From Massilia oculi (GTDB lineage: Bacteria; Pseudomonadota; Gammaproteobacteria; Burkholderiales; Burkholderiaceae_D): a DNA stretch of 64,000 nt. The stretch spans positions 2,542,001 through 2,606,000 of the forward strand of contig NZ_CP029343.1 in the NCBI RefSeq assembly GCF_003143515.1, given 5' to 3'. The notes beneath the pieces were generated by a model. The model was not told where the DNA came from. It saw nothing but the letters and a program-made list of their open reading frames with translations, and did no database searches. The stretch's first letter is position 1, and each line of letters opens with the position of its first letter. Shown here piece by piece: positions 24,846-40,563 of this stretch. The position numbers were made by a program, and so were the translations under genes.

Positions 24846-25502
24846 TTACGCTCCTTTCTTGGCTTTGGTTTTGACAGCTGGCTTGACGACCACTTGGCCG
24901 TTCTTCGCGCCAGGAACGGCACCTTTGACCAGCAGCAGCTGGCGGTCGGCGTCGATGCGAGCGATTTCCAGGTTCTGGGTGGTGACGGTAACGTCGCCCA
25001 TGTGACCGGTCATGCGCTTGCCTGGGAACACGCGGCCTGGATCCTGGGCCATACCGATCGAGCCAGGAACATTGTGCGAACGCGAGTTACCGTGGGTAGC
25101 ACGGCCCGAAGCGAAGTTGTAACGCTTGATGGTACCGGCGTAGCCCTTACCGATCGAGGTGCCTTGCACGTCGATTTTCTGGCCCACTTCGAACATCGAA
25201 GCATCAATGGTGTCGCCGGCTTTGAGTTCAGCGGCTTTGGTGGAATCGATGCGGAATTCTTTCAGCATCGTACCGGCTTCGACGCCAGCTTTGGCGTAGT
25301 GACCGGCGGCGGCCTTGGTCACGCGGGAAGCGCGACGTTGACCGAAGACGACCTGAACTGCGGTGTAGCCATCAGTTTCAGGGGTTTTGACTTGTGCGAC
25401 ACGGTTGTTCGACACGTCCAGCACGGTGACAGGGATCGAATCGCCGTCATCCGTAAAGATACGCATCATGCCAACCTTGCGACCGAGGAGGCCCAGGCTC
25501 AT
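24846..25502 (-). CDS. rplC: 50S ribosomal protein L3
   Basis: 218 residues, [19 protein letters not shown], with the [18 protein letters not shown] region reaching the peptidyl-transferase centre and the methylated-Gln site. First gene of this ribosomal block; rpsJ, normally its upstream neighbour, is absent here. Confidence 0.98.
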
Positions 25503-31429: not shown

Positions 31430-31718
31430 GCTGTGCTCCTTCAGATGGGGTGGAAGAGCAACCAGTATCGGGTTGGCGCATGCTCTCCCGTTGCCGGAAG
31501 CTGGTTCGTTTTTGCCTGATCCTCCAAATTCTCAAATGTGACATTCGCGGAGCTTCCGCAGGGCGTAAGTACGTACATGCCTCTATGAAAAATGTTGAAA
31601 TCCGCGCGGCCCGGCCCCATGTACAATTAATCAATTACCGCCTATATTGGCGGATGCAATCCCGATGGCGGCAGGTATATCGCCGTCCATGTCATCCCTC
31701 AACGGAAAAGGAGTTCGC
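31430..31718. promoter_or_regulatory. Divergent control region SDR / terD
   Basis: 289 bases, AT-richer than the neighbouring genes. Contains a palindrome CCGCC-TATATT-GGCGG (31638-31653) and a GTACGTAC core near 31570 upstream of terD. TACAAT (31622-31627) or TATATT (31643-31648) could be a -10 for the ter operon, but neither has a fitting -35, so an activator or alternative sigma factor may be needed. Confidence 0.4.
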
Positions 31719-32294
31719 ATGGCAATCAGTCTGCAAAAAGGTGGCAACGTCAACCTGAGCAAGGAAGCACCGGGCCTGTCCAAGGTCATCATCGGCCTGG
31801 GCTGGGATCCCCGCTCGACCGACGGTTCCGCCTTCGACCTGGACGGCAGCGCCTTCCTGCTGAAGGCCGACGCCAAAGTCCGCGGCGACACCGACTTCAT
31901 CTTCTACAACAACCTGAAATCGAGCGACGGCTCGGTGACCCACGCCGGCGACAACACCACCGGCCAGGGCGATGGCGACGACGAAAAGCTGACGGTCGAC
32001 CTGGCGCGCGTGCCGGCCGACATCGACAAGGTCTCGTTCTGCGTCACCATCCACGATGCCGATGCGCGCCGCCAGAACTTCGGCCAGGTGGGCAAGGCCT
32101 ATATCCGCTGCCTGAACGCCGCCGGCGAAGCCGAGATCGCGCGCTACGACCTGTCCGAGGACAGCTCTACCGAAACCGCGATGATCTTCGGTGAGCTGTA
32201 CCGCGCCGGCAGCGAATGGAAGTTCCGCGCCGTCGGCCAGGGCTTCAAGGGCGGCCTCGGTCCGCTGGCACGCTCGTTCGGCGTCAACGTCTAA
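31719..32294 (+). CDS. terD: TerD-family calcium-binding stress protein
   Basis: 191 residues from ATG 31719 (AAAAGGAG 6 bases upstream), [19 protein letters not shown]. TerD signature elements are present: [18 protein letters not shown], the calcium-binding [14 protein letters not shown] and the C-terminal [19 protein letters not shown]. Family members bind calcium and act in tellurite, phage and colicin resistance. First gene of a plus-strand operon that ends with a second Ter protein. Confidence 0.95.
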
Positions 32295-32392
32295 GAGTTT
32301 CACAGGGAGCTTCCATCCCCTGAGGGTCCGCGCCGTCCGGCGTGGGCCTGCAACGCCACGCCAGTGGCCGATCATCCATCAAGAGAGCCCAC

Positions 32393-33412
32393 ATGCGCGT
32401 CTGGTACAACAGGACGTTTTCGTCCGTGAATGCGGCGATCAAGCTGATCCGCGAGGCCGATACCGAAGGCCGTTTCACCATCATCCACAGCAACGCCAAC
32501 CGCCATGCGCCAGCCGCGCGCCTGGCCCATGAATTCCACGTCGAGCCCACTGGCCTGAAGGGCGACGCCTATGTCGACTGGTGCCTCGCGTTCTGCCGCG
32601 ACCAGAAAATCGACATCTTCGTGCCGGGCCGCGAAGCCACCGTGCTGGCCGCCGAACATGCGCGCTTCGCCGACATCAAGACGCGGGTGCTCAGCGCCGC
32701 CCCGCCGGCGCAGCTCAAACGCATCCACGACAAGGCCGATTTCTATGCCGCGACGGTGCTGCCGGACGCGCCGGTGGCGGCCTTCCGCCCCTTCGAGACG
32801 CTGGAACAGTTCGACGCCGCCTATGCCGAACTGCGCCCGCGGCATGCGAAGCTGTGCGTCAAGCCGGCGCACGGTATCTATGGCCTGGGCTTCGCCATCG
32901 TCGACGAAGAGCGCAGCAGCGCCGCGCTGCTGCTTGGCGGCGTGGAGTACCACATCGGCTACCAGGACCTGCGCCGCGGGCTGGGCGAACTGGAATCCTT
33001 CAAGACCATGCTGCTGATGGAATTCCTGGACGGCCCCGAATACAGCGTCGACTGCGTGGGCGACCATGGCCGCCTGGTGGCGGCCGTGGTGCGCCGCAAG
33101 CTGCCGCAAGCCGGCAGCGGCCAGCTGATCGACATGCGCCAGGACATCCTGGACGCCACCGCGCGCCTGTGCACTGATTACCAGCTCAATGGCGTGTTCA
33201 ACGCCCAGTTTCGCGAAGGCGGCGGACGACCGCGCCTGCTCGAGATCAATCCGCGCATGTCGGGCGGGATCGGCATGGCCTGCCTGGCCGGCCCCAACCT
33301 GCCCTACATCGCGTTGCGCGGCTTCGCCGAAGGCTATGAGGGTCTCGCGATTCCCGCGCCGCGCCACGGCATGCGCGTGGCCGAAGTCAGCGTCGCGACG
33401 GAGCTGGCATGA
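32393..33412 (+). CDS. ATP-grasp enzyme of the Ter metabolite operon
   Basis: 339 residues from ATG 32393 (AAGAGAG upstream). ATP-grasp features: KPAHGIYGLGFAIVD (nucleotide-binding lysine and glycine loop, near 166), the EFLDGPEYSVDCV strand with acidic metal ligands near 218, and RLLEINPRMSGGIGM near 280. Such enzymes ligate a carboxylate to an amine with ATP. In the comparative-genomics description of Ter systems by Anantharaman, Iyer and Aravind, an ATP-grasp of this type is part of a predicted pathway to a nucleoside-like metabolite. Its stop overlaps the next start by 4 bases. Confidence 0.88.
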   Translation: MRVWYNRTFSSVNAAIKLIREADTEGRFTIIHSNANRHAPAARLAHEFHVEPTGLKGDAYVDWCLAFCRDQKIDIFVPGREATVLAAEHARFADIKTRVLSAAPPAQLKRIHDKADFYAATVLPDAPVAAFRPFETLEQFDAAYAELRPRHAKLCVKPAHGIYGLGFAIVDEERSSAALLLGGVEYHIGYQDLRRGLGELESFKTMLLMEFLDGPEYSVDCVGDHGRLVAAVVRRKLPQAGSGQLIDMRQDILDATARLCTDYQLNGVFNAQFREGGGRPRLLEINPRMSGGIGMACLAGPNLPYIALRGFAEGYEGLAIPAPRHGMRVAEVSVATELA

Positions 33413-34608
33413 ACGCCCCGCACCCGATTCCCGTTCAACGTATCGCGCTACAGCTTGAGCTACCAACGGGCACGCTCGACTTGCGCATCGACAGCGGCGC
33501 GTCCGAACTCGACGCCCTGCTCGGCTTTGCCGCGCGCGCCAACGCCAAGCGCGGCTTCCTGTTCCTCAGCAAGGTACTGGGCAAGCACTGGCCGGCGCGG
33601 CCAAGCGACATGCTGACGGTGCACGAGCGCCTGGCCGCGACCGTGCCGCAGCTCAAGGGCGCGGTGCAAGGCCCGGTGGTGTTCATCGCCATGGCGGAGA
33701 CCGCGATCGGGCTGGGCCAGGGCGTGTTCGAGGCCTGGCTGCGCGCCCATCCGCACCAAGAGGCGCTGTTCCTGCACACCACCCGCTACCGAGTCGGCGC
33801 TGGCCCGCTGATCGAATTCGAGGAAGCGCACAGCCACGCGCCGCGCCAGTTCCTGCACGCGCCGCTGGAGCCGGCGCTTCGAGATCTGCTGCTGGCCGCG
33901 CGCACCCTGGTGCTGGTCGACGACGAGGCCAGCACCGGCAATACCTTCGTCAACCTGGCCGCCGCCTGCCGCCGCCTGAATCCGGGCCTGGAGCGGGTGC
34001 ACCTGGCCACCATCACCAATTTCATGGGCCGCGCGGCGACCGGGCTGCTGGACACCCGCTTCGGCATGCCGACTACCTGCGGCGCGCTGGTCGAGGGAGA
34101 GTTCAGCTTCGCGCAAGGCCCCTTGCCGCCCGACCAGGGCGTGGCGCAGCGCTATGAAGAAGATGCCGACCGCGGCGCCAGCGCCGCCTTCGGCCGCCTC
34201 GGCGCGGGGCGGGCATTGCGGGCGCCGGAGCAACTGGCGGCGCGCCTGGCCGGCGAATTCGCGCCCGGCAGCCGGGTGCTGGTGCTGGGCACCGGCGAAT
34301 TCATGCACGTCTCGACCCTGTTCGGCGCCGCCCTGCAGCGCCATGGCGTCGACGTGGCGGTGCAGTCGACCACGCGCTCGCCGATCCTCACCTGGGGCGC
34401 GGTGGACCATGCCTTGACCTTCCCCGACAACTACGGCGAAGGCATTGCCAACTACCTGTACAACGTCGCGCCCGGCCATTACGACCACGTGCTGGTCTGC
34501 CACGAGACCGCGCCCGGCCCGGCGCTGTTCCAGCTCGCCGGCCAGCTGAACGCGCGGCTATTCCACTTCCAGTCCGAGGACCACGTTGAAGAAGTTCCTG
34601 TTCGCTGA
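33409..34608 (+). CDS. Phosphoribosyltransferase with C-terminal TRSP-type domain (Ter operon)
   Basis: 399 residues. The PRPP-binding loop is VLVDDEASTGNTF near 168-180, preceded by a flavour of type I PRTase fold (VVFIAMAETAIGLGQGV). The C-terminal part (about 265-395) contains VLVLGTGEFMHVS, TTRSPIL and NYLYNV, consistent with the TRSP domain found C-terminal to these PRTases. Predicted to handle a ribose-phosphate intermediate of the Ter metabolite. Translationally coupled at both ends (ATGA with the ATP-grasp; 23-base overlap with the HAD gene). Confidence 0.85.
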   Translation: MNAPHPIPVQRIALQLELPTGTLDLRIDSGASELDALLGFAARANAKRGFLFLSKVLGKHWPARPSDMLTVHERLAATVPQLKGAVQGPVVFIAMAETAIGLGQGVFEAWLRAHPHQEALFLHTTRYRVGAGPLIEFEEAHSHAPRQFLHAPLEPALRDLLLAARTLVLVDDEASTGNTFVNLAAACRRLNPGLERVHLATITNFMGRAATGLLDTRFGMPTTCGALVEGEFSFAQGPLPPDQGVAQRYEEDADRGASAAFGRLGAGRALRAPEQLAARLAGEFAPGSRVLVLGTGEFMHVSTLFGAALQRHGVDVAVQSTTRSPILTWGAVDHALTFPDNYGEGIANYLYNVAPGHYDHVLVCHETAPGPALFQLAGQLNARLFHFQSEDHVEEVPVR

Positions 34609-35350
34609 CCTGGACGATACGCTGTTCCAGACCTTCGGCAAATGCGGCGCGCACCGGGACAATCCGGGCGCCCTTGAGCCGGCCGCCTATTACAAGGACG
34701 GCAGCATCTGCTCGTACACGACGCCGGCCCAGCGTTCCTTCCTGGCCCTGCTGCAGGACGGGATGACGATGATCCCGACCACCGCGCGCGATCTCGACGG
34801 CCTGCGCCGCGTGTCCCTGCCGTTCGACAGCTACGCCGTCATCAACTACGGCGGCGTGGTGCTCGAGCCGGGCGGCGCGGTCGACCAGCCCTGGCTGGAC
34901 GGCATGCGCACGGCGATGCACGCCGCCCTGCCCGGCCTCTTGGCGCTGGCCGACCACATCGACGATTACGGCGTGCGCACCGGCTATGGCGGCCGCGCGC
35001 GCATGATCGAGGATTTCGCCACCCCGTTCTTCTTGGTGGTGAAGGATCCGGACAAGCAGGCCGAGCGCCTGGCGCCGCTCGAGGAAGACGTGGTACGGCC
35101 CTGGATCGCCGACGGCGACCGCGACTATTTCATCCATCGCAACGGCAACAATCTCGCCATCCTGCCGAAGGCGCTGAACAAGGCCAACGCGGTGGCCCAC
35201 ATCACCGAACGCCTGACGCGCGAATTCGGCGAGATCGTCACCTTCGGCATGGGCGACAGCCGCTCGGACGCGCGCTTCATGGCCGCCTGCGACTACGCCA
35301 TCATCCCGCGCGGCACCCAGCTCGCCGGCATCACCGTGGGGGCGCTGTGA
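34586..35350 (+). CDS. HAD-superfamily phosphatase (Ter operon)
   Basis: 254 residues from a TTG start at 34586, inside the previous gene, with GAGGA 6-10 bases upstream; this start gives MKKFLFADLDDTLFQT at once. HAD motifs: Asp8 and Asp10 in ADLDDTLF, Thr in IPTTAR (motif II), Lys in LPKALNKANA, and FGMGDSRSDARFM (motif IV). A Cof-type cap lies between. Predicted to remove phosphate from an intermediate of the same pathway. Confidence 0.88.
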   Translation: MKKFLFADLDDTLFQTFGKCGAHRDNPGALEPAAYYKDGSICSYTTPAQRSFLALLQDGMTMIPTTARDLDGLRRVSLPFDSYAVINYGGVVLEPGGAVDQPWLDGMRTAMHAALPGLLALADHIDDYGVRTGYGGRARMIEDFATPFFLVVKDPDKQAERLAPLEEDVVRPWIADGDRDYFIHRNGNNLAILPKALNKANAVAHITERLTREFGEIVTFGMGDSRSDARFMAACDYAIIPRGTQLAGITVGAL

Positions 35351-36444
35351 GCGGCTGGGAAGACTTCTCCGGCAGCTACCGCAAGGGCGAGGTCAGCTTC
35401 CTGCTGCGCCGCCTGCCGCAGGAAGGCTTCGTCGACGTGGCCGAGAAGGAAGCGCTGATCCAGAGCGGCCGGCGCCACTACAGCCAGATGCTGTCGCCCG
35501 AGTCGAAGCCGTCGGCGCGTTACATGGCATTGTTCGACGAGGCCTGCCGCGCCAACAATGCGCGCATGGCGCGCGATTGCCTGCGCCTGGCCCAATTGAT
35601 TGCCGCGCGTCCGCTGCACCGGCTGGCGCTGGTGTCGCTGGCGCGCGCCGGCACCCCGGTCGGCGTGGTGGTGGCCCGCCTGCTGCGCGAGCTGTTCGGA
35701 CGCGACGCCGTGCACTACTCGGTGTCGATCGTGCGCGACCGCGGCATCGACGCCGCCGCCCTGCGCCACATCCTGGCGCACGGACACCAGGCCGACGGCA
35801 TCGTCTTCCTCGACGGCTGGACCGGCAAGGGCGTGATCGCGCGCGAATTGGCCGGCTCGATCGAGACCTTCAACGTGCGCCACGGCACCCATATCGACGC
35901 CGGTCTGCACGTGCTGTCCGACCTGGCCGGCGCTAGCGCCTGCGCGGCCTCCTGCGACGACTACCTGATCCCGTCGAGCATCCTCAACGCCACGGTGTCG
36001 GGCCTGGTAAGCCGCACCGTGATGGGCGACGACATGCGCGCCGACGACTTCCACGGCTGCGTATTCTATGAGCAGTTCGCGGACGTGGACCGCTCGCAAG
36101 CGTTCGCCGACGAACTGGTGGCGCTGGCGCTGGCGCAATCCGGCACACTGCCGCGCGCGGAACCGATCGACGCCGCGGCGGCGCGCGAACGCTCGCAGAC
36201 CTATATCGGCGCGGCGATGCGGCGCTACGGCATCGCCGACGTCAACCTGGTCAAGCCCGGCATCGGCGAAGCCACGCGCGTGCTGCTGCGCCGCGTGCCG
36301 CGCCTGGTCGTGCTGCGCGACCCTGGCGCCACCGAAGTGGCGCACCTGGCCGTGCTGGCCGAAGAAAAACGGGTGCCGGTCGAGATCGACCCGCACCTGC
36401 CCTATCATGCAGCATCCCTGATCAGGAGTGCATCGGATGGCTAA
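35347..36444 (+). CDS. Second phosphoribosyltransferase-like protein with PELOTA-type C-terminus (Ter operon)
   Basis: 365 residues, GTG start overlapping the HAD stop (GTGA). PRTase core near 75-165 with LALVSLARAGTPVGVVVARL, SIVRDRGID and the PRPP loop VFLDGWTGKGV. The C-terminal 80 residues (from DVNLVKPGIGEATRVLL) resemble the PELOTA RNA-binding module reported fused to these enzymes. Together with the first PRTase it suggests a ribosylated product. The assignment of the C-terminal domain is less certain. Confidence 0.82.
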   Translation: MSGWEDFSGSYRKGEVSFLLRRLPQEGFVDVAEKEALIQSGRRHYSQMLSPESKPSARYMALFDEACRANNARMARDCLRLAQLIAARPLHRLALVSLARAGTPVGVVVARLLRELFGRDAVHYSVSIVRDRGIDAAALRHILAHGHQADGIVFLDGWTGKGVIARELAGSIETFNVRHGTHIDAGLHVLSDLAGASACAASCDDYLIPSSILNATVSGLVSRTVMGDDMRADDFHGCVFYEQFADVDRSQAFADELVALALAQSGTLPRAEPIDAAAARERSQTYIGAAMRRYGIADVNLVKPGIGEATRVLLRRVPRLVVLRDPGATEVAHLAVLAEEKRVPVEIDPHLPYHAASLIRSASDG

Positions 36445-37354
36445 ATCACTGGGCGCGTCGTTGTACGTGCCGGCCAATCACAAGAACCTGACCGCGATCG
36501 CCAACGGCGACCGCCTGCCGCACGCGCGCTCGCTGATCTTCTGCACCGAGGATGCGATCGCCGACCGGGAACTGTCCTGGTCGCTGTTCAACCTGTCGGT
36601 GGTGCTGGCGAACATGCGCCTGGACGTGGCGGCCGACCGCTTCGTGCGTGTGCGCAATCCCGAAGTGCTGGCGCGCGTGCTGGCCATGCCGGGCGCCGAG
36701 AAGCTGACCGGCTTCGTGCTGCCCAAGATCACGCGCCACAACTTCGACAGCTATTTCAAGCTGGTGCGCCACACCGAACACGTCCTGATGCCGACGCTGG
36801 AGACGGCCGAGGCTTTCGACGACGGCGAGATGCAGGGCCTGCGCGCCGCGCTGGAAGCGCCCGGCGTGCGCCACCGCATCCTGGCGCTGCGCATCGGCGG
36901 CAACGACCTGCTGGCCCTGCTCGGCCTGCGCCGCCCGCGCGGCATGACCCTGTACCGCACGCCGCTCGGCCCGGTGATCTCGCGCCTGGTGACGACCTTC
37001 CGTCCCTACGGCTTCATGCTGACCGCGCCGGTGTTCGAATACCTCGACCTGCCCGAACTGCTGGACCAGGAAGTGATCGAAGACCTGGCCCACGGCATGG
37101 TCGGCAAGACCGCGATCCACCCGACCCAGATCGCGCCGATCGAGCAGCACTTCAAGGTGACGCCGCAAGACCTGGCGGTGGCGCGCGCCATCCTCGACGC
37201 CTCGAGCCCGGCGGTGTTCCGCATGGACGACGCGATGCAGGAAGTCGCCACCCACCGCGCCTGGGCCGAGCGCACCCTCGAACAATCGCGCCTGTTCGGC
37301 TCGCACGCGGCCGGACTGGACCACAAACCATTCCTGGAAGGAGAACCCTCATGA
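36437..37354 (+). CDS. HpcH/HpaI (CitE-like) aldolase/lyase of the Ter operon
   Basis: 305 residues from ATG 36437, 8 bases after AGGAG; a GTG three codons upstream overlaps the RBS and is unlikely. CitE-family motifs are clear: SLIFCTEDAI, VRVRNP, GFVLPKI, LMPTLETAEAF and GKTAIHPTQI. TIM-barrel C-C lyases of this group use a metal held by the two Glu/Asp. In Ter operons it is predicted to form or cleave a carbon skeleton for the unknown metabolite. Confidence 0.88.
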   Translation: MAKSLGASLYVPANHKNLTAIANGDRLPHARSLIFCTEDAIADRELSWSLFNLSVVLANMRLDVAADRFVRVRNPEVLARVLAMPGAEKLTGFVLPKITRHNFDSYFKLVRHTEHVLMPTLETAEAFDDGEMQGLRAALEAPGVRHRILALRIGGNDLLALLGLRRPRGMTLYRTPLGPVISRLVTTFRPYGFMLTAPVFEYLDLPELLDQEVIEDLAHGMVGKTAIHPTQIAPIEQHFKVTPQDLAVARAILDASSPAVFRMDDAMQEVATHRAWAERTLEQSRLFGSHAAGLDHKPFLEGEPS

Positions 37355-38649
37355 CTACTCAGTTTGGACGCGGACAGAAGGGCAAGCTGACCGATCTCGG
37401 CGCCGGCCACGCCTTCGATGTCGACGTCGAGATCGCCGCCAACGGCGCGTCGGTCGATGTCTCCTGCTTCGGCCTGGACGCCAACGACAAGCTGTCGGAC
37501 GACCGCTACATGGTGTTCTACAACCAGCTCGCCAGCCCCGAAGGCGCGGTGCGCCTCGACCTGGGCGGGGGACGCGCGCGCTTCGCCGTCAACCTCGATC
37601 AGTTGCCGGCCTCGATCGCGAAGCTCGTGTTCGTGGCCGCGATCGACGGCGCGGCCACCATGCGCACCCTGGGCGCCAGCTCCCTGTCGCTGGGCAGCGC
37701 CGTGCGCTTCCCGTGGTCGGGCGCCGATTTCGGCGACGAGAAGGCCCTGATCGTGGCCGAACTCTACCGCCGCGACGGTCTGTGGCGCTTCGGCGCCGTC
37801 GGCCAGGGTTTCAATGGCGGCCTGTCGGCGCTGCTGGCCAACTTCGGCGGGACCGAGGCGGGTTCGCCGGCGCCGGCCGCGCCGGCACCGGCACCGGCAC
37901 CCAAGCCGGCGGTGTCGCTGTCCAAGGTCACGCTCGACAAGCGCGGCGACAAGGTCTCGCTCGACAAGCGCCCCGGCGGAGGCTACGGCCGCATCCACGT
38001 CAACCTGAACTGGAACCAGGCCGCCATCGCACCGCCGCCGGCCTCGCCGCCGCCGCCCTCCTCGGCCGCGCGCGGCGGCGGTTTCCTGGACCGCCTCACC
38101 AGCATGGCGGGCGACCTCGCGAACAAGGCCGGCGAGATGGCCAACAAGGCCGGCGCGGCGCGCAAGGGCCGCAGCGGCATCGACCTCGACCTGGGCTGCA
38201 TGTACGAGCTGGCCGACGGCCGCCGCGGCCTGGTGCAGGCGCTGGGCAACACCTTCGGCGACTACGAGCGCGAACCCTTCATCCAGCTGGATGCCGACGA
38301 CCGCACCGGCGCCGCCGCCAATGGCGAGAACCTGTTCATTAACGGCGAACGCTTCGACAAGATCAAGCGCGCCGTGATCTTCTCCTTCATCTACGAAGGC
38401 GCGGCCAACTGGGGCGTGACCAATGGCGTGGTGACGGTGACGGCGCCGGGCCAGGCGCCGGTCGAGGTGAGACTCGACGGCGGCGACCGCCAGATCATGT
38501 GCGCGATCGCGCTGATCGAGAACCGCGGCGGCAACCTCGTGATCACCAAGCTGGCCGAATACTTCCAGCAGCAGGGCATGACCAGCGCGCACGAGCTGAT
38601 GGACCGGCACTACGGCTTCGGCATGCGCTGGAAGACGGGCAGCAAATAA
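37351..38649 (+). CDS. terA: TerA-like tellurium resistance protein (two Ter domains)
   Basis: 432 residues, start overlapping the lyase stop (ATGA). An N-terminal TerD-like domain (about 1-165, ending FGAVGQGFNGGLSALL) is followed by a low-complexity Ala/Pro linker, a short repeat (SLSKVTLDKRGDKVSLDK), a second strand-rich segment with HVNLNWNQ, another Ala/Pro/helix linker, and a C-terminal TerA domain (about 270-432) with IDLDLGCMYELADG and the MRWKTGSK end. Probably forms a complex with TerD at the membrane side. Last gene of the operon; a strong hairpin follows. Confidence 0.9.
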   Translation: MTTQFGRGQKGKLTDLGAGHAFDVDVEIAANGASVDVSCFGLDANDKLSDDRYMVFYNQLASPEGAVRLDLGGGRARFAVNLDQLPASIAKLVFVAAIDGAATMRTLGASSLSLGSAVRFPWSGADFGDEKALIVAELYRRDGLWRFGAVGQGFNGGLSALLANFGGTEAGSPAPAAPAPAPAPKPAVSLSKVTLDKRGDKVSLDKRPGGGYGRIHVNLNWNQAAIAPPPASPPPPSSAARGGGFLDRLTSMAGDLANKAGEMANKAGAARKGRSGIDLDLGCMYELADGRRGLVQALGNTFGDYEREPFIQLDADDRTGAAANGENLFINGERFDKIKRAVIFSFIYEGAANWGVTNGVVTVTAPGQAPVEVRLDGGDRQIMCAIALIENRGGNLVITKLAEYFQQQGMTSAHELMDRHYGFGMRWKTGSK

Positions 38650-39145: not shown

Positions 39146-39907
39146 CTACTGGTCGGATTCTTCTGGCCCTAATCGTGCATATTGGATGTTAAGTGTGATC
39201 GCCTCGCTGTAGCGGAGCACAAAAGAATCGCCATCGACGTCATAGAAGCGATTTTCAACAGTAGGTGTGTCATTTGCCGGGCGCGACTTGTCGGCTTCGA
39301 TCGGTCGCCGGGCGACATTCTGGAGGACGAGACGGTCGAGCTGCCCTTCCGCATCGACATCAAACTCGTCGAGGACACCTACGTACAGTACAGCGTCCTT
39401 CCCTACCTCGACGATCGCCGATACAAAGATCAGGTCCGGTTCCTCTCCGGACTTGAAATCCGCCCCCGTAAGCAGGTAGTACCAGGGTGCCTGATGAAAT
39501 CTGAATATCGGGCTGAGAAATGCATCAGCGCGGTCGAGGCGGCAGCGCGAGATGATGAAACGAATGATCTGCGGGACAGCGAATGAGGCGACGATGAGCG
39601 TTACGAAATATGTCGCAATCCAGTTGAATTGACTGCCAACAGCTTCGCTCGCTTGGGCCTGTGGTAATGGCGCCGAAGAGAGCAGCTGCATCAGTGTTAC
39701 GGGGTCGAAGTCACGCTGGAATACGATATGCGACAGGCTCAACCAGAAGAGATGCAGAAGCGATGCCCACAGAATCCCTTCGGCAACGACTTGCCCGAAA
39801 GGTGAGAAATCCAGGGATGTGCGCTCTGCGCGCTTGAGATTGGTGCGGAAGACGAAGCCTGGGAGGAGCAGGAAAAAAACGATCAGCGCAGGCAACGCGA
39901 CGTTCAA
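39146..39907 (-). CDS. Hypothetical membrane protein
   Basis: 253 residues, family not securely recognised; the plan resembles DUF6338-type membrane proteins. Hydrophobic segments at about 4-20 (ALIVFFLLLPGFVF), 42-62 and 95-115 are followed by a soluble C-terminal domain (about 125-253) rich in acidic residues and strands (VGKDAVLYVGVLDEFDVD). Base composition is visibly AT-richer than the neighbours. Twelve bases downstream of a 63-residue gene on the same strand; the two probably form one transcript. Confidence 0.7.
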   Translation of the reverse strand: MNVALPALIVFFLLLPGFVFRTNLKRAERTSLDFSPFGQVVAEGILWASLLHLFWLSLSHIVFQRDFDPVTLMQLLSSAPLPQAQASEAVGSQFNWIATYFVTLIVASFAVPQIIRFIISRCRLDRADAFLSPIFRFHQAPWYYLLTGADFKSGEEPDLIFVSAIVEVGKDAVLYVGVLDEFDVDAEGQLDRLVLQNVARRPIEADKSRPANDTPTVENRFYDVDGDSFVLRYSEAITLNIQYARLGPEESDQ

Positions 39908-40245: not shown

Positions 40246-40563
40246 TTACTGCAGCTTGATTTCGACGTCGACGCCAGCTGGCAGGTCCAGCTTCATCAGT
40301 GCGTCAACGGTCTTGTCGGTCGGGTCCACGATGTCCATCAGACGCTGGTGCGTACGGATTTCGAACTGGTCGCGCGAGGTCTTGTTCACGTGCGGGGAAC
40401 GCAGCACGTCGAAACGCTGGATGCGGGTCGGCAGCGGGACTGGGCCCTTGACGACGGCGCCGGTGCGCTTGGCGGTGTCGACGATTTCCAGTGCGGACTG
40501 GTCGATCAGCTTGTAGTCGAACGCTTTCAGGCGGATACGGATTTTCTGGTTTGGAGCGGACAT
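40246..40563 (-). CDS. rpsJ: 30S ribosomal protein S10
   Basis: 105 residues, [20 protein letters not shown], with [19 protein letters not shown]. Part of the small subunit and, as NusE, of antitermination complexes. It follows tuf and is closed by its own terminator, so it is cut off from the rest of the S10 operon. Confidence 0.98.

Follow-up and report, generated by a model that had tools for sequence, protein, structure and literature searches.

Seven open genes at positions 31719-38649 of a 64,000-nucleotide stretch of the Massilia chromosome (the window) form an operon that probably builds, for the Ter stress network, a molecule derived from a nucleotide. We favour, with moderate confidence, the reading of these genes as the biosynthetic arm of a Ter system whose response runs through a separate TerC/DUF475-TerD-AIM24 locus. 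In the literature passages available on this system the biosynthetic product figures as a prediction only, despite the presence of its StiP enzyme on many plasmids. The first-pass annotation of this DNA had likewise described the product as not established, and our search found no paper that identifies it. The genus offers natural presence and absence of the operon, compact enzyme genes and TerC-type genes that lie apart, so that biosynthesis could be removed or moved while TerC is left untouched.

A compact operon of seven genes

The genes and the probable promoter element are arranged as follows (E values from Pfam).

31620..31627, plus strand: TGTACAAT, probable promoter element (-10) of the operon, unchanged across all 20 aligned upstream regions
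31719..32294, plus strand: terD, 191 aa, TerD domain (PF02342, 6.6e-85)
32393..33412, plus strand: ATP-grasp ligase, 339 aa (PF15632, ATPgrasp_Ter, 9.5e-44); alternative start GTG 32342
33409..34608, plus strand: PRTase_2-TRSP, 399 aa, APRT-like phosphoribosyltransferase (PRTase_2 1.2e-62, TRSP 7.6e-22)
34586..35350, plus strand: HAD phosphatase-type enzyme, 254 aa, TTG start (weak HAD-IIB matches and motif residues)
35347..36444, plus strand: StiP-PELOTA_1, 365 aa, PRTase-fold and L7Ae-like domains (PF11202 1.4e-95, PF15608 7.2e-30)
36428..37354, plus strand: CitE-like C-C bond lyase, 308 aa (PF15617, C-C_Bond_Lyase, 3.5e-89)
37351..38649, plus strand: terA-like gene, 432 aa, N-terminal TerD domain and divergent TerD-like C-terminal part (PF02342, 5.7e-31)

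Open reading frame coordinates and Pfam domains bore out the seven plus-strand genes of the first-pass annotation. Its gene identities were upheld by Pfam, predicted folds and conserved residues, and the domain search it had proposed recovered both TRSP and PELOTA. It had also described six genes with overlaps of 4 to 23 bases; the six genes and the sizes are correct, and the overlaps number five (4, 23, 4, 17 and 4 bases, in order along the six genes that begin with ATP-grasp). The ATP-grasp protein most likely starts at ATG 32393 rather than GTG 32342, since its relatives in the genus mostly have 338-343 residues; with this start, 98 bases separate it from terD.

A consensus scan of the upstream region gave an alternative candidate promoter with TGTACA as the first hexamer and TATATT (31643-31648) as the second. 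We also considered, and rejected, TGTACAAT as an operator that the operon shares with the TerC, TelA and TerF loci of the same genome. The element occurs only once among these regions (L027, L028, L029 and L030), in L027 upstream of a neighbouring gene, and therefore looks like a plain promoter element.

Conserved residues of the enzymes and the TerD-domain proteins

Residues were compared in homologue alignments confined to non-identical sequences within a length window, and their conservation agreed with the earlier report of intact catalytic motifs. In the ATP-grasp ligase, K114, K157, E216 and N270 are present in 31/31 homologues and E284 and N286 in 30/31. The HAD gene gave sub-threshold family matches only (Pfam Hydrolase_3, 4.3e-4; HAD-IIB and related models); its motif residues D8, D10, T12, T66, K199, D224 and D228 are unchanged in all 38 homologues. 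The lyase is related to a protein of solved structure, citrate lyase beta (1sgj, E 1.2e-5), and keeps R74, R76, E125, N159 and D160 in 34/34 homologues. Family match together with conserved acidic and arginine residues qualifies it, at the sequence level, as a CitE-like lyase, in which we take R74, R76, E125 and D160 to have the functional roles of their counterparts in CitE-like enzymes. The PRTase_2-TRSP protein combines a predicted type I PRTase fold with a PRPP loop of the form hhhhDDxxxTGxT; its predicted fold supports a resemblance to APRT, in a comparison that scarcely covers the TRSP domain.

The terA-like protein aligned with TerD (hhalign) at probability 100 in its N-terminal part and 50.6 (E 1.6e-4) in its C-terminal part. 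Across the genus, terD is present in 31 of 32 readable operons and the terA-like gene in 29 of 34. The former is missing in one genome and the latter in five, so the enzymes need neither. The terD counts were not drawn from the query-based absence list, since a hit to the terD query there may come from the terA-like protein.

StiP has a predicted phosphoribosyltransferase fold and an L7Ae-like tail

The predicted model of StiP had a pLDDT of 90.2. In a VIA-align second look at the Foldseek top 1000, the fold neighbours listed at ranks 2-50 were type I PRTases or PyrR. This supports a PRTase fold resembling HPRT and PyrR, although likeness to HPRT, PyrR or APRT does not identify the substrate. 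PDB sequence searches with the PRTase domains of PRTase_2-TRSP and StiP returned chance-level rows only, the StiP matches being confined to the L7Ae-like part. The StiP loop reads D156-G-W-T-G-K161-G, with Gly at position 157 in 38 of the 39 aligned sequences and Ser in one; the adjacent pair of acidic residues that marks a classical PRPP loop was not found in this alignment. With the second of the pair missing, PRPP use by StiP is putative. The C-terminal profile is similar to L7Ae over the RNA-binding region (E 8.5e-4), and K303, E308, T310 and R311 are present in 39/39 homologues; the tail is thus a putative RNA-binding domain, whose contact residues were assigned by alignment.

Such a tail raises the alternative of RNA as substrate or trigger, in which StiP-PELOTA would dock on a structured RNA and modify or exchange a base in it, or make its product only when RNA-bound. 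On this view the pathway would act on RNA, modifying or guarding it, and would not synthesize a free small molecule. The invariant tail residues fit this alternative, as do the non-classical donor loop and the presence among the fold neighbours of PyrR, an RNA-binding relative of the PRTases. Against it, no RNA target was seen: Rfam at its gathering threshold found one tRNA and no other RNA family at 24000-46000 of the window, and the leader RNA folded no better than shuffled sequences (z -0.33). The HAD, ATP-grasp and lyase enzymes also suggest small-molecule chemistry. We regard a role for RNA as unlikely. More doubtful still is a broader version, in which Ter is an RNA-gated nucleotide-signalling response: StiP-PELOTA, placed on a structured RNA by its L7Ae-like domain, would either modify a base of this RNA or make the Ter signal only for as long as the RNA is bound, and the other four enzymes would prepare or decorate the base.

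TerC-type genes lie elsewhere on the chromosome

The favoured reading, of the operon as a biosynthetic arm, places the response at another locus. No terC was found in the roughly 7 kb that flank the operon on each side, so that the statement of the first-pass annotation that TerC is not nearby holds locally; TerC-type genes are present at about 1.99 Mb and at other sites of the chromosome. The same chromosome carries, apart from the operon, a TerC/DUF475-TerD-AIM24-TerD locus, a TelA-TerD locus, a TerF/TerC locus and a TerB-family match, and the description of the operon as a minimal version without terC, terB and terZ was therefore misleading. A search for TerY_C gave no match in this genome but also none in any control genome, which makes the negative uninformative. 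Counterparts of the TerC/DUF475-TerD-AIM24-TerD genes adjoin the enzymes in relatives: all four in Pseudoduganella (P. umbonata), a set without intact AIM24 in Polaromonas, and a set with no DUF475 in the stretch shown in Aromatoleum. Because these genes are contiguous with the enzymes in relatives, the Massilia layout is best read, from gene order, as a split Ter system.

The TerD-domain genes that flank the enzymes would also suit an operon that by itself confers tellurite resistance, a reading we hold very improbable. The operon has no TerC gene. According to the relevant passages of PMC8115787, terZABCDEF without the biosynthetic cluster makes E. coli MG1655 tellurite-resistant, and those of PMC8779313 give the minimal set as terC plus terD or terE.

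Both Pfam and NCBI name StiP a cysteine protease, by which the operon would be a protease-based stress system. C238, beside the invariant H236, is kept in 38/39 sequences of the broad alignment and in 51/51 of a closer set. The remaining broad-set homologue (L065) has Ala at this position, leaving no invariant cysteine among the 39 distinct homologues. This and the predicted fold argue against the public name, and we give the protease reading scarcely any credence. The fold evidence steers assays to nucleotide chemistry and RNA binding.

Distribution and selection in the genus

The operon, scored by StiP, occurs in 34 of 61 genus genomes, and the five enzymes are found together in 32/32 readable operons; in two genomes (G398 and G421) the ATP-grasp gene and most of the PRTase gene are absent because contigs end there. 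One genome (G424) received the five-enzyme block alone by transfer. Synonymous exceeded non-synonymous change in 34/34 gene comparisons with five relatives, with dN/dS of 0.08-0.25 against the nearest relative compared and at most 0.55 against the others, ratios that place the operon genes under purifying selection. That the operon is a decaying relic with no present function in this strain is the least credible alternative, as these ratios, the seven open frames and the intact motifs outweigh its patchy distribution, the genome in which terD alone remains at the operon site (G431) and the one whose ATP-grasp deviates at the C-terminal motif (G434, L085).

AIM24 is present in 60/61 genomes (G426 gave no match). 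The TerC/AIM24 locus also occurs in 26 operon-free genomes and must therefore have another role too. TelA (29/61) and vWA-TerF (20/61) are found only among the 34 StiP-positive genomes. When mapped on a core Ter locus tree (60/61 genomes), StiP changed 3 times, TelA 3 times and TerF 9 times, with 3 independent pairs. These are too few for co-inheritance to serve as functional proof, and the argument was dropped; shared ancestry accounts for the pattern equally well.

Proposed pathway

The gene set, the conserved residues, the predicted folds, the joint occurrence of the enzymes and the linkage to TerC-type genes in relatives are shown here; each reaction described below, the sequence of the steps, a part in signalling and any effect on phenotype are inferred. 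The constant heart of the pathway would be the two PRTase-fold enzymes, PRTase_2-TRSP and StiP-PELOTA, which may put a phosphoribosyl group onto a base or base-like acceptor, or exchange the base. The HAD enzyme would take a phosphate off, and the ATP-grasp ligase and CitE-like lyase, evolutionarily less constant, may add a side chain and cut it back. Binding or presentation of the product would fall to TerD and the terA-like protein, and the response would run via TerC/DUF475, TerD and AIM24-type proteins from the separate, nearly universal locus. Among 11 distant loci only the two PRTases are constant, and the ATP-grasp gene was found in 4 and the lyase gene in 7, so that one fixed product for all loci is unlikely. 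The StiP homologue L065 sits among four TerD-domain genes.

Comparison with known systems

Anantharaman, Iyer and Aravind reportedly predicted in 2012 a Ter cluster that makes a nucleoside-like metabolite. That cluster has the same five enzyme families, with their Pfam domains, and TerD-domain neighbours as in Massilia, where terD and the terA-like gene lie inside the operon; the Massilia TerC-type genes differ in lying at another locus, not adjacent. With four enzymes above the Pfam cut-off and the HAD enzyme recognized by motif, the operon belongs, by gene content, to this kind of cluster already predicted from genomes, as the first-pass annotation had proposed. PADLOC gave no credible defence-system match, 7 of 8 proteins having no match at all; the single weak hit of StiP (type I specificity subunit, 65 residues, E 0.0021) was taken as chance.

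StiP homologues were found on 2566 of 72,556 plasmid records. The Ter genes of Acinetobacter phage vB_AbaM_ME3 (L194) show the same PRTase, HAD, StiP order, with StiP 31.5% identical, but the annotation of the 17 kb stretch shown includes neither an ATP-grasp nor a CitE-like gene. Enterobacterial-type ter loci (L061, L062 and L064) share the Massilia order of ATP-grasp, PRTase, HAD, StiP and lyase, and differ in that the enzymes are divergently oriented from the set of TerD-family and terA-like genes; in the Klebsiella cluster, as the passages of PMC8115787 describe it, a separate terZABCDEF operon lies on the opposite strand. The ter array of Polaromonas naphthalenivorans pPNAP04 (L192) has the same order of TerD, ATP-grasp, PRTase, HAD, StiP, CitE-like and TerD-family genes as Massilia, with enzymes 60-69% identical; it differs in carrying DUF475 and more TerD genes directly before the enzymes, which are followed on the other strand by genes for TerY-C, VWA, PP2C and a kinase.

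The Ter operon and its insertion site

The source genome is a single contig of 5.84 Mb, of which the window covers positions 2542001-2606000. The features considered here are as follows (window coordinates).

24846-25502, rplC
31719-38649, plus strand, the seven-gene Ter operon
39146-39907, minus strand, 253-aa membrane-like protein, lying between the operon and rpsJ
40246-40563, rpsJ

Pfam assigned the products, in gene order, to TerD; ATPgrasp_Ter; PRTase_2 with TRSP; HAD (sub-threshold matches only); StiP with PELOTA_1; C-C_Bond_Lyase (the CitE-like lyase); and a second TerD-domain protein (terA-like). From the ATP-grasp gene onward, successive genes overlap by 4, 23, 4, 17 and 4 bases. Gene coordinates and Pfam bear out the first-pass annotation of a seven-gene plus-strand Ter operon with overlapping genes, including the TRSP and PELOTA domains that it had named for a profile search. 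StiP is 98%, 95% and 94% identical to its relatives in M. oculi, M. timonae and M. arenae, respectively. In the terA-like protein the Pfam TerD domain spans residues 1-165; comparison with TerD by hhalign gave a probability of 100 for the N-terminal part and 50.6 (E 1.6e-4) for the C-terminal part, a weak indication that the latter is a divergent TerD-like region.

rpsJ and rplC, which adjoin each other in a typical S10 operon, are separated in the window by 14.7 kb, and the Ter operon lies inside this gap. Of 26 StiP-negative genus genomes with an rpsJ match, 20 were fetched and 19 could be read; in all 19 the two genes are likewise apart, by about 1.4-11.8 kb of varying content. The gap is a genus-wide variable site. 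The 253-aa protein had no match in Pfam, NCBIfam, PADLOC or PHROG, and relatives were seen at this position in just a few genomes, some of them StiP-negative. A perfect inverted repeat, CCGCC-TATATT-GGCGG, lies at window 31638-31653 shortly after the conserved TGTACAAT. It was found in 7 of 20 aligned upstream regions, all from the window itself or close relatives, and is a possible candidate operator.

Catalytic residues and selection

Alignments of the enzymes drew on genus homologues and on those of up to 11 distant phylum loci; residues with roles known from general enzymology were compared. PRTase_2 residues D171-D172-E173, T176-G177 and T179 were kept in 38/38 sequences, as were HAD residues D8, D10, T12, T66, K199, D224 and D228 (38/38); R74, R76, E125, N159 and D160 of the lyase were kept in 34/34, and K114, K157, E216 and N270 of the ATP-grasp enzyme in 31/31. 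The catalytic motifs of these four enzymes, described earlier as intact, thus retain the expected residues. ATP-grasp E284 and N286 were kept in 30/31; the exception, from genome G434 (L085 10184-11515), differs at four C-terminal residues that are constant elsewhere and also shows a match in a second frame; this gene may be broken. Nei-Gojobori dN/dS for all seven genes was 0.08-0.25 against the G408 locus (L077) and did not exceed 0.55 against four other relatives, values that are rough owing to codon bias.

Distribution and modularity

Of 398 phylum genomes, 12 including the source genome had a StiP match above the family cut-off; within the genus, 34 of 61 did. The 34 genus operons were read from 20 and 13 fetched loci plus the window. 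All five enzymes occur together in 32/32 readable operons (in the other two, G398 and G421, contigs end inside the PRTase gene) and terD in 31 of these 32; the terA-like gene was found in 29/34 and not in G404, G402, G417, G424 or G398. All 11 distant loci have PRTase_2 and StiP, 10 have HAD and 7 the lyase, and ATP-grasp occurs in 4, always with the lyase (4/4); absences are soft for L058 and L059, which are short contigs. An economical reading is that the two PRTases and the phosphatase would form the core chemistry, with ATP-grasp and lyase as an extension.

Further Ter loci in the genome

Family searches and fetched loci showed that the same genome also contains one TerB-family match and three more Ter loci.

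784 kb, TerB-family match (27.6 bits)
About 1.51 Mb, TerF locus: TerD-vWA protein (PF10138) beside a TerC-family protein with what we take to be CBS-like regions
About 1.99 Mb, core Ter locus: TerC/DUF475-like protein, TerD, AIM24/TIGR00266-like protein, second TerD
About 2.29 Mb, TelA locus: TelA (PF05816), TerD and a presumably XpaC-like protein

AIM24 of the core locus is present in 60/61 genus genomes, compared with 34/61 for StiP; of its 60 carriers, 59 have TerC and 60 both TerD genes. TelA occurs in 29/34 StiP-positive and TerF in 20/34, and each in 0/27 StiP-negative genus genomes. On the tree built from the core locus, 33 of 34 StiP-positives and the StiP-negative G431 fall on one side of a single branch. 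Co-inheritance of TelA/TerF as a functional link to the operon was considered and set aside: the test could not DISCRIMINATE, and shared ancestry accounts for the association equally well as function, because the tree holds three StiP changes and only three independent pairs.

Apparent loss and possible transfer

Core and enzyme trees share 12 of 31 splits (34 taxa). G431 has no enzymes and a lone terD between an MscS-like gene and rpsJ (L160), apparently a remnant after enzyme loss. The core tree pairs G424 with G409, which is StiP-negative (support 100/99), but in the enzyme tree the G424 block branches as sister group of the window's clade (SH-aLRT 99). That block also lies at the rpsJ-rplC site and has neither terD nor terA (L178). 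This suggests that the five-enzyme block alone was transferred into G424; the placement of G424 is not beyond doubt, as its base composition was flagged as different from that of the alignment.

Proposed mechanism

The Ter biosynthetic cluster was reportedly predicted in a 2012 paper. From the observed gene set, its conservation and neighbourhoods, and the predicted folds we infer every reaction of the following scheme. PRTase_2 and StiP would act on a base-ribose-phosphate, either making or remodelling it, and HAD would dephosphorylate it; ATP-grasp and lyase would decorate the product. Sensing would be the task of TerD-domain proteins, and a membrane response that of TerC/AIM24-type proteins. 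In the excerpts available, PRTases and HAD are described as signal biosynthesis and found in phage ME3 (PMC7824862), the biosynthetic cluster is called putative and its TerC link unclear, with terZ-F enough for tellurite resistance in E. coli (PMC8115787), the minimal resistance set is terC plus terD or terE (PMC8779313), terC deletion has phage, Zn and Mn phenotypes (PMC12054061), and the molecular mechanism is stated to be unknown (PMC9933665). Among the matches listed from non-subscription literature, no title or abstract opening identified the Ter cluster product.

Comparison with Ter layouts in relatives

The first-pass statement that no TerC lies nearby holds around the operon; genome-wide it does not, with TerC-type genes at about 1.99 Mb and 1.51 Mb. 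In Pseudoduganella umbonata (L014), TerC-TerD-AIM24-TerD directly follows the enzymes, whereas in Massilia it forms a separate locus. Polaromonas naphthalenivorans pPNAP04 carries DUF475 and three TerD genes upstream of the enzymes, with the AIM24-like gene only a remnant; a gap in this array (L192 4865-5460) contains a frame-broken sequence like the AIM24/TIGR00266-like gene. Aromatoleum plasmid 1 has three TerD genes and a TIGR00266 gene before the enzymes, without DUF475 in the stretch examined. Identity between these enzyme-linked counterparts and the proteins of the 1.99 Mb locus is 59-78%, and the Polaromonas DUF475 is nearer the source genome's other DUF475 copy (70.6 vs 64.4%).

By eye, a prophage contig (L086 6880-12003) carries the five enzymes and an additional ORF resembling a fusion of TerD with a trypsin-like protease, after which come TerB-, TerC- and TerD-like genes. 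Two distant loci lacking ATP-grasp and lyase have, again by eye, a transporter-like protein of Na/Ca exchanger appearance at the expected TerC position (L065 12941-13918; L055 8412-9560).

Gene neighbourhoods in relatives suggest a split rather than a minimal Ter system in Massilia, in place of the minimal version first proposed. The operon is a well-formed new example of a known, as yet uncharacterised Ter cluster type.
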